This document shows, in pieces, positions 6,250-9,112 of a DNA stretch of 9,247 nt. Both the position numbers and the translations under genes were made by a program. The DNA is from Candidatus Latescibacterota bacterium. Its GTDB lineage: Bacteria; JAAXHH01; JABIQT01. The notes beneath the pieces were generated by a model. That model saw only the letters and a list, made by a program, of their open reading frames with translations, was not told the DNA's origin and ran no database searches. The DNA is taken from positions 1 to 9,247 of the forward strand of contig JABIQT010001124.1 in the NCBI GenBank assembly GCA_018667995.1, in the 5' to 3' direction. Within the stretch, counting starts at the first letter, position 1. Each line of letters starts with the position of its first letter.

Positions 6250-6891
6250 CTACGAGCGAATCGTCCCGTCATCCGAGTATCCGCGTTGCTCCCAGTATCC
6301 CTTGTGGTTCTCGGTAACGACATCGATACGTGTGATCCATTTTACCTGCTTATACCCATATACGCCTGGTAGAACGAGTCGGACAGGCGAGCCGTGATTA
6401 GGTTGGAGAGCTGCTCCATTCATTCGGTGCGCCAGGAGACTGTCCGGTTTCATTGCCATGGCCACTGGAATACTGCTCTCGTAGCCGTCTCCGGCGTAAA
6501 ATACGACCTTCTTGGCATCAGACTGAATCCCTGCTCTATCGAGCAAGAATCGAAGCGGCATCCCAACCCACTCGGCAGTTCCACTTGCGCCACCAACACA
6601 TTGCAGCACCGCTCGATAGGTCTGCTGCGGATCGGTGGCAAGCTCTTCATACAACATGCTGAATGAGTGCTCTACAGCTCCCCCGACTGTCAGCATTGAT
6701 GTAGTAACGTCAATCCTGGGAGCGAAGGATGTGATCGCCGTTACAAAGAATCGTCTCAGCGGCGTCAATCCATTTTCATCGCGCTCCACCGGCACACTAC
6801 GCTGTGCCGGCATGGATGTCCGCGCAGGCACGGCACAATCGGCGACCAGGAGGCCGGCGGCGAGCGTCTCCAGAAAATGTCGTCGATTCAT
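6250..6891 (-). CDS. Tat-exported sulfite-oxidase-family molybdopterin protein (small, MsrP/YedY-like fold)
   Basis: This is a 213-residue protein of the sulfite oxidase or YedY molybdopterin-binding fold. The N-terminus MNRRHFLETLAAGLLVADC is a twin-arginine signal, implying folded, cofactor-loaded export. AVLQCVGG places Cys98 at the molybdenum-ligating cysteine position. Family blocks follow in order: WVGMPLRFLLDRAG (108-121), VVFYAGDGYESSIPV (129-143), MNGAALQPNHGSPVRLVLPGVYGYKQVKW (157-185), and KGYWEQRGY near the end. It is clearly shorter than YedY (over 300 residues), and the segment right after the Cys is compact. The heme partner MsrQ/YedZ is not nearby. The substrate is unknown; protein-methionine-sulfoxide or sulfite chemistry is only suggested by the family. 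The TPR gene 55 bp upstream may form an operon with it. Confidence 0.85.
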   Translation of the reverse strand: MNRRHFLETLAAGLLVADCAVPARTSMPAQRSVPVERDENGLTPLRRFFVTAITSFAPRIDVTTSMLTVGGAVEHSFSMLYEELATDPQQTYRAVLQCVGGASGTAEWVGMPLRFLLDRAGIQSDAKKVVFYAGDGYESSIPVAMAMKPDSLLAHRMNGAALQPNHGSPVRLVLPGVYGYKQVKWITRIDVVTENHKGYWEQRGYSDDGTIRS

Positions 6892-6946
6892 ATGACAAAT
6901 TATCCCGGAACCTAACCCTGTTGTCCTGCGCTCCCTTGTAGCAACC

Positions 6947-7549
6947 CTACTTATTACGCATTGACGCCATCTGCTCCCTTATCCACCCCGCACGGGGATG
7001 GTTCGGGGTATACATCAGGAGCGTATCCCAAGCGGCGATCGCTCCCGGAAAGTCCAGCGCATCGGACTGAAGCACCAATCCGAGATTGTAGCGGGCATTG
7101 ACATGCGATGGATCTATGGAGAGCGCCTTACGAAACCTCTTAATACAGGCGTCGCTTTCACCGATCCTACGGTACGAAATACCGAGATCCACGATCACAT
7201 CGGGGTTGTTCGGGTCTGTCTCAAGAACTTGCGCATATTGCATTATGGCACTCTGGTAATTCCCCGCATCAAAGTAAGCATTCGCAAGTTGCGTCCTGGC
7301 CTCTCTGTCTTCGGGGGAGTGCGTCAAATGTGTCTGAAGCTGATTTATGACTGCGCTACCTGCCGATGGAGTCCCTGTTGGTGGGGGAACACCACCGGCA
7401 TTTACCGGCAGGGGTTCATTTCCACCCAGAACCATTGACATAATAATACCAGCCAATGCGCCGAATACGAATGTCACCAGATGTGAAACCCAGGGTTGAT
7501 AATTGGGAGCGCGTGTTTTGCGATTAGTTCGGGGAGATTTCTTGGCCAT
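6947..7549 (-). CDS. Membrane-anchored tetratricopeptide repeat protein
   Basis: With the start at 7549, the 200-residue product has a basic cytoplasmic N-terminus (MAKKSPRTNRKTR), one membrane helix (about 21-42), a Pro/Gly-rich linker (44-65) and three TPR units: about 80-113 (ARTQLANAYFDAGNYQSAI), 116-148 (DLGISYRRIGESDACIKRF) and 151-184 (ARYNLGLVLQSDALDFPGAI). The repeats should lie outside the membrane as a protein-binding platform. An in-frame ATG at 7639 would add 30 residues (MNPGSNFTLHSVKGSRL and onward), but the basic-then-helix layout favours 7549; neither start has a strong ribosome binding site. The gene is first in the minus-strand series and has a good promoter upstream. The molybdoenzyme gene follows after 55 bp, so a role in assembling an envelope complex is possible but unproven. 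Confidence 0.78.
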   Translation of the reverse strand: MAKKSPRTNRKTRAPNYQPWVSHLVTFVFGALAGIIMSMVLGGNEPLPVNAGGVPPPTGTPSAGSAVINQLQTHLTHSPEDREARTQLANAYFDAGNYQSAIMQYAQVLETDPNNPDVIVDLGISYRRIGESDACIKRFRKALSIDPSHVNARYNLGLVLQSDALDFPGAIAAWDTLLMYTPNHPRAGWIREQMASMRNK

Positions 7550-7680
7550 GCCGTATACCACCGTTGGCCCTACTGGAAGGCGGCATATCAGCCTGCTTCC
7601 TTTCACGCTGTGCAGTGTGAAATTCGAGCCTGGGTTCATGTTTCATGGGGTCGCTATTCTGCGTGCTATAATACGTTTTC

Positions 7681-7887: not shown

Positions 7888-7905
7888 ACGACACGGGAGG
7901 ATATT

Positions 7906-8463
7906 GTGGCTTGGATAGATACGATAAGTGCTGGCGCCGCCACGGGTAGCTTGAAACGTCAATACGAAGCGGCCATAAAGCGAGCCGGTAAGATCTTTGG
8001 AATCGTCAAGATCATGAGTTTGAGTCCGGAAACCATGAGGACCTCAATGGGGCTCTATAGGGCATCAATGATGGGCGAGTCTCCACTTTCACGCGCCCAT
8101 CGCGAGATGCTGGCAACGGTAGTATCGAGGGCAAATGACTGCCACTACTGAACAGAGGCACACGGAGAGGATCTCCGTAAGCTCACCGACGACGAGGTGA
8201 TGGTCGGCCACATGAAGACGGACTATCGGGAGGCAACTCTTGACGAAGCGACTCGGGCCCTGCTGGACTATGCCGTAAAATTGACCAACACACCGTCAGC
8301 AATGACGAAGCAGGACATCATCCACCTTCGGAATCTCGGATGGAGTGATACAGCGATTCACGATGCAGTCCAGGTAATAAGCTACTTCAATTATATCAAT
8401 CGTATCGCCGATGCGCTGCACGTGGATCTTGAACCCGAGATGCCGCCATATCCGGAGGCGTAG
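7906..8463 (+). CDS. AhpD-like peroxidase-related selenoprotein (CxxU, in-frame TGA = Sec82)
   Basis: This is an alkylhydroperoxidase D / carboxymuconolactone-decarboxylase fold protein, expected to be a cytoplasmic thiol (here selenol) peroxidase or oxidoreductase. GTG at 7906 follows GGGAGG by 5 nt. The frame meets TGA at 8149-8151 and continues open for 103 more codons to TAG at 8461. Around the TGA the product reads ANDCHY-U-TEAHG; AhpD proteins have CxxC there, so the TGA replaces the second, reactive Cys. The family active-site set aligns: Glu67, Cys79, Sec82 and His86, with the same spacing as E118, C130, C133 and H137 of mycobacterial AhpD. Both halves match one 180-190-residue peroxidase-related family. 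A SECIS-like hairpin follows the TGA. A nonsense mutation is less likely, and TGA ends other genes here, so it does not encode Trp. It is divergent from the TPR gene and convergent with the SGNH hydrolase. Confidence 0.87.
8149..8184 (+). promoter_or_regulatory. Candidate bacterial SECIS element with UGA codon
   Basis: The Sec codon is 8149-8151. Twelve nucleotides after the TGA (8152-8161 plus the first stem base) a perfect 6-bp stem, ACGGAG (8162-8167) with CTCCGT (8173-8178), closes a 5-nt loop AGGAT. A lower stem of GAG(g)C (8155-8159) with GCTC (8181-8184) extends it below a small internal loop. The loop has G at its second and third positions, about 18-20 nt from the UGA. Known bacterial SECIS elements have a short apical loop with a G among its first bases and a UGA-to-loop distance of about 16-37 nt. 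SelB recognition is inferred. Confidence 0.75.
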
Positions 8464-8477
8464 TGCCGCACTACCGC
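8458..8477. terminator. Hairpin spanning the two convergent stop codons
   Basis: The 7-bp gap between the plus-strand selenoprotein gene and the minus-strand SGNH gene is covered by TAGTG-CCG-CACTA (8461-8473), which includes both TAG stops. It is extended by G8460-C8474 and, past one bulged base, by two more GC pairs (8458-8459 with 8476-8477). The position suits a shared bidirectional terminator, but no U-tract follows on either strand, so intrinsic termination would be weak. Confidence 0.3.
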
Positions 8478-9112
8478 AGTGCCTCGACGACGGCCTCTGC
8501 AATCACTACATGCCCCGCCTGATGAGGGTGCACAGGCTCGGGACAGAACGTATCCGCATCCCGATATTTCAACTGATTCTGAAAGATGTCGTGCGTCTTG
8601 ACAAGGCGCGTATCATACTTCTCGCTCATTCGCTCAACGATCTCGATATATCGAGGCAGATTCTCAAGCAGCCGGCTCCGACTTGTGGCTCCGGACCGGT
8701 CTCTGCTGATGTAAAACGGAGAAATCAGCAGAACGGGGCAGCCGAGCTTTGACTTTGTCTCTTCAAGGATGTAATCATAGGTCTCTTCAAAAAGCTCCGG
8801 AGCCACGCCACCATCGACTTGATTCAAATAACTACCCAAATCGTTGATACCTATTTTTATGGACAGCCAATCGGGCCGATGATATACCACATCGTCTTGC
8901 CAGCGATTGCGGAGATCCGTTACCTTATTGCCCCCAATGCCCTTATTGATATAGCGAATCTTCCGATCTGGAAATCTGCTCGTAATCAATTCAGAGGCAA
9001 TACGCACATATCCGCTTCCTAATGGTGCGTCTGCACCACGTCTCCCGCAATCGGTGATACTATCACCGATGAAGAGAACCGTCTGTCCGTCCTGAATCGC
9101 AATATCGTTCAC
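8471..9112 (-). CDS. SGNH/GDSL-family hydrolase (probable esterase)
   Basis: This is a serine hydrolase of the SGNH fold, 213 residues and complete as a single domain. Block I is VLFIGDSITDCGRRG (Ser nucleophile, about residue 18), block II is NKGIGGNKVTDLRNRW (oxyanion Gly), block III is IKIGINDLGSYL (oxyanion Asn), and block V is EPVHPHQAGHVVIAEAV (catalytic His). Related proteins include carbohydrate acetylesterases and lysophospholipase-like enzymes. In block V the usual D-x-V-H-P reads E-P-V-H-P, so the acid member is Glu. No signal peptide is visible, suggesting a cytoplasmic enzyme. The GTG start at 9112 has GGGAG 6 nt upstream and overlaps the stop of the preceding gene (GTGA), implying coupling. 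An acetylated sugar substrate is plausible but unproven. Confidence 0.87.
   Translation of the reverse strand: MNDIAIQDGQTVLFIGDSITDCGRRGADAPLGSGYVRIASELITSRFPDRKIRYINKGIGGNKVTDLRNRWQDDVVYHRPDWLSIKIGINDLGSYLNQVDGGVAPELFEETYDYILEETKSKLGCPVLLISPFYISRDRSGATSRSRLLENLPRYIEIVERMSEKYDTRLVKTHDIFQNQLKYRDADTFCPEPVHPHQAGHVVIAEAVVEALR

Follow-up and report, generated by a model that had tools for sequence, protein, structure and literature searches.

A predicted AhpD-like CxxU selenoprotein gene, with its selenocysteine codon conserved among relatives, in a Candidatus Latescibacterota bacterium

AhpD-like selenoproteins with a CxxU motif were described in 2005 from the Sargasso Sea, where 27 sequences belonging to COG2128 were found (PMC1088965), and in 2008 the GOS 'AhpD-like 1' group comprised 299 Sec and 902 Cys sequences (PMC2398784). 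A 2026 review names AhpD-like CxxU selenoproteins explicitly in connection with TIGR01926 (PMC13188914). Selenoproteins have been reported from Planctomycetes as well, in a paper whose main text does not feature AhpD (PMC4807772). In AhpD of Mycobacterium tuberculosis, the catalytic relay consists of Glu118, Cys130, Cys133, and His137, while the AhpD-like protein PA0269 shows only weak activity with H2O2 (PMC3141380). The gene analyzed here is a member of this selenoprotein family known since 2005, in agreement with an initial sequence-only reading of the DNA, which had regarded the class as already described. It shares with the known members the family assignment (COG2128/TIGR01926), Sec at the second position of CxxU, a hairpin just past the UGA and a marine origin, but differs in its host, which belongs to a small phylum represented by 16 genomes.

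The window, i.e., the whole stretch of DNA that was analyzed, comprises 9,247 nt of a Candidatus Latescibacterota contig (JABIQT010001124.1, assembly GCA_018667995.1). When TGA is translated as a residue, positions 7906-8463 on the plus strand encode a protein of 185 residues that begins with GTG, ends with TAG and contains a single TGA as codon 82 (8149..8151). GGGAGG at 7895..7900 (+), 5 nt upstream of the GTG, is likely to serve as the Shine-Dalgarno sequence. The TGC at 8140..8142 (+) encodes Cys79, the first residue of CxxU and the equivalent of AhpD Cys130, and the TGA takes the place of AhpD Cys133. The frame is broken by TGA alone and precisely where the CxxC site has its second Cys, as had been proposed. 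Downstream of the TGA the frame stays open for 309 nt, which was the case in just 1.1% of shuffled sequences.

Translation table 11 divides 7906-8463 into two ORFs of 81 and 88 aa, exactly the two small ORFs that the first reading had anticipated. Taken at face value, this would mean that translation stops at the TGA and that the region holds two distinct genes or encodes a protein in two parts, and a GTG at 8197 could indeed start the second ORF. However, such a start would sacrifice His86 together with the whole block between the TGA and 8197, which is conserved and invariant in the homologues, and the homologues with Cys are single proteins. We therefore consider two separate products extremely improbable and treat 7906-8463 as one gene.

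The read-through product matches TIGR01926 (peroxidase-related enzyme) with 142.9 bits (E 8.5e-42) over residues 3-177, well above the curated cut-off of 81.8 bits, and also passes Pfam CMD. The PDB chains 3c1l and 2pfx align on both flanks of the TGA and have Cys at its position, so that the homology suspected on either side of the stop codon is genuine. Together with 6k40, they represent the Cys form of peroxidase-related proteins and align with the window protein over nearly the full length, differing in Cys where the window protein has Sec. All relay residues of TIGR01926 (Glu, CxxC/U, and His) are present as Glu67, Cys79, TGA82, and His86; these four positions, whose AhpD-like spacing had been pointed out from the sequence, do not vary among 11 aligned homologues. 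The catalytic spacing Glu-12-Cys-3-Cys/Sec-4-His is common to the window protein and M. tuberculosis AhpD (TIGR00777), whereas the second Cys of the latter is replaced by Sec and His132, which precedes it, by Tyr81, as in PA0269. The window protein does not belong to TIGR00777 itself (20.3 bits, cut-off 191.95). NF041238 (AhpD_rel_CFYUT), named after its CxxU-T motif, and NF053654 (YciW-related (seleno)proteins) are likewise AhpD-related selenoprotein families, and the window protein is a member of neither, scoring 67.8 bits against a cut-off of 175 for the former and 22 bits against 310 for the latter.

An ordinary AhpD gene with a CxxC site could also have acquired a TGA in this frame through a nonsense mutation or through an error of sequencing or assembly, and both the origin of the window from a fragmented MAG and the two ORFs obtained with table 11 would fit a pseudogene. 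The conservation of the TGA refutes this explanation and leaves it with a negligible probability. A syntenic orthologue with 73% identity in an independent bin (ERR599008_bin.45; G013, locus L056) has the same TGA and neither TGC nor TGT, and the codon recurs in dozens of other genomes. Between the window gene and this orthologue, changes at codon positions 1/2/3 amount to 18/15/45 before the TGA and 23/14/53 after it, with dS being saturated. Because the differences concentrate at third codon positions, the part after the TGA is kept as protein and has remained under selection. Within the host phylum, each of the 33 copies detected at E <= 1e-20 in 16 genomes contains exactly one in-frame TGA, located at the same place in the loci read. 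Three further AhpD-like paralogues were seen in the host bin (L117, L118, and L119; G000:C749, C870, and C496), with one TGA each at the CxxU site.

The same codon is found beyond the host phylum. C-x-Y-U with TGA is present in all 23 homologues on genome contigs (47-73% identity, mostly Planctomycetota), and Planctomycetota and similar loci have TGA at 52 of 52 sites read and TGC or TGT at none. Among 294 sampled genomes of the phylum to which the Planctomycetota record G048 belongs, TGA is present in every one of the best 79 matches listed, and the first match lacking it has 42% identity. Cys forms were encountered only at greater distance, with L030 at 43% identity, L043-L045 at 23-30%, and plasmid-borne homologues at about 33% or less. 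As homologues were sampled by their similarity to a Sec query, these counts describe the neighborhood of the gene and not the whole family. Within this neighborhood, the relatives aligned to the read-through product have either Sec (TGA) or Cys at position 82 and no unrelated residue, and the nearest copies almost all have Sec, in contrast to the predominance of Cys among the GOS AhpD-like 1 sequences.

We also considered that the in-frame TGA, which is evidently read through, might specify an ordinary residue such as Trp (code 4) without any involvement of selenium. The other clear ORFs of the window contain no internal in-frame TGA; these genes use 43 TGG codons, and two of them end in TGA. 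Since the neighboring genes thus use TGA as a normal stop, reassignment of the codon is refuted and has hardly any probability left. In addition, homologues align Cys and not Trp at this site, and genes for Sec synthesis are present. The host bin encodes SelA (486 bits) and SelD (373 bits), and its selD (L022:1478-2569, G000:C1058) is itself a Sec gene with a TGA in the N-terminal CGUAAK motif.

Of the Sec machinery expected in the host, selA and selD are thus present in the bin, while a search of its assembly, which comprises 1165 contigs and is 85% complete, recovered neither selB nor tRNA-Sec(UCA). The best match to the SelB profile examined in this assembly proved to be a CysN/CysC-like protein adjoining CysD, and the tRNA-Sec candidates were Ser and Leu tRNAs. 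Both components do occur in relatives of the same order, with selB above the cut-off in 14 of 15 and tRNA-Sec (68-72 bit) in 13 of 15 genomes, the latter often directly adjoining selB. ARAGORN classified five candidates as tRNA-SeC(tca), of which four belong to this order and the fifth to G016, a more distant genome. At the same threshold, tRNA-Sec was detected in 21 of 22 other genomes with a homologue, but in only 3 of 14 control genomes. In the host (L021:1512-2705, G000:C455) and in several order relatives (L159-L162), the best selA genes align with the SelA profile from about position 64-71 onward only, and their N-terminal domain seems to be absent. A second SelA-like gene (L025:1185-2507) is full-length and low-scoring (189 bits).

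Shortly 3' of the TGA, the window gene contains a SECIS-like hairpin (8162..8178, +) with a 7-bp stem (8162-8168/8172-8178) and a GGA triloop (8169-8171), ACGGAGA-GGA-UCUCCGU, overlapping the codons from His86 to Arg91. It starts 10 nt 3' of the UGA, and places its small apical loop, with a G, at +18. Its stability exceeds expectation only moderately (z -1.65; -1.46 against synonymous shuffles), energy alone being a weak argument. In one group of paralogues, this position is occupied by ACGCAGA-GUU-UCUGCGU, in which one base pair is fully compensated; 98.6% of cells were paired, compared with 19-66% in slid versions. The other paralogue group forms a 7-bp stem one base further from the UGA. 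The selD gene of the host bin, whose product is an unrelated protein, likewise forms a 7-bp stem; its loop of four bases, GGUA, starts at nucleotide 18 after the UGA as well.

Copies from Planctomycetota (L057-L078 and L129-L158) contain a different hairpin, GAYCUC-CGUGCC-GARRUC, with 6 bp and the loop at +25. All six pairs are formed in 28 of 48 distinct sequences, and one pair alternates between C-G (24) and U-A (11). Over all Sec copies, the folding energy gave a mean z of only -0.55 against synonymous shuffles, a weak argument because in GC-rich sequence many of the hairpins from Planctomycetota do not stand out. Taken singly, the hairpins have energies that deviate only moderately from expectation, so the case for them rests on position and covariation; the covariation may also reflect codon preference in a conserved DLRAE stretch. 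Rfam yielded no match at the gathering threshold in the window and, near the gene, one chance-level match only. Considering gene structure, conservation and Sec genes together, we predict with a probability of roughly 0.96 that TGA codon 82 of 7906-8463 encodes selenocysteine inserted in a SelB-dependent manner.

Divergently from the selenoprotein gene, the window encodes a molybdopterin-binding oxidoreductase (PF00174) and a TPR protein (6250-7639). This divergent pair also adjoins the G013 orthologue and is the only part of the neighborhood common to both loci. A gene for a GDSL-like lipase (8471-9112, -) converges on the selenoprotein gene and lies 7 nt from its end. In several Planctomycetota (L058, L059, L066, L076, and L078), an M1-family peptidase with HEAT repeats is encoded directly upstream on the same strand; no such gene was seen in the window or at the G013 locus.

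The product is most likely a thiol-selenol oxidoreductase with the TIGR01926/AhpD fold, which is known from the solved homologues. According to our model, SelB carrying Sec-tRNA(UCA) would bind the hairpin 10 nt past the UGA, and Sec would be inserted at residue 82. A relay of Glu67, Tyr81, and His86 would then activate Sec82, which could attack a hydroperoxide or another oxidized substrate. A selenenylsulfide would form between Sec82 and Cys79, and a dithiol reductant would reset the pair. The attacking and resolving roles are those of the corresponding residues in AhpD, and by this analogy Sec82 would be the attacking residue and Cys79 the resolving thiol. A peroxide is somewhat more likely than not to be the main substrate, and the relay residues linked to the peroxidase activity of AhpD are conserved. 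It is possible, though we think it less probable, that the selenoprotein mainly serves as a general thiol/selenol oxidoreductase or as a reductase of another substrate. The designation of TIGR01926 members as merely 'peroxidase-related', the weakness of PA0269 towards H2O2 and the lack of an ahpC gene in the window are all in line with such a role.

Two aspects of the gene are mildly new, namely that Cys forms are nearly absent from its subfamily and that two hairpin designs accompany the same Sec codon; in the literature searched, we found no statement on near-universal Sec in the subfamily or on a lineage-specific hairpin design. These observations tentatively suggest, at odds slightly short of even, that Sec is almost obligatory in a subfamily spanning the small host phylum and much of Planctomycetota, with different hairpins serving one Sec codon. 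If this is true, the Sec residue persists even as SECIS elements are exchanged, and the enzyme hardly tolerates Cys. Because table 11 cuts the gene in two, annotation that is unaware of Sec would miss the enzyme in these genomes. With this finding, a small phylum that apparently uses selenium steadily joins the known Sec users, and the results point to an AhpD-like subfamily in which Cys is rare.
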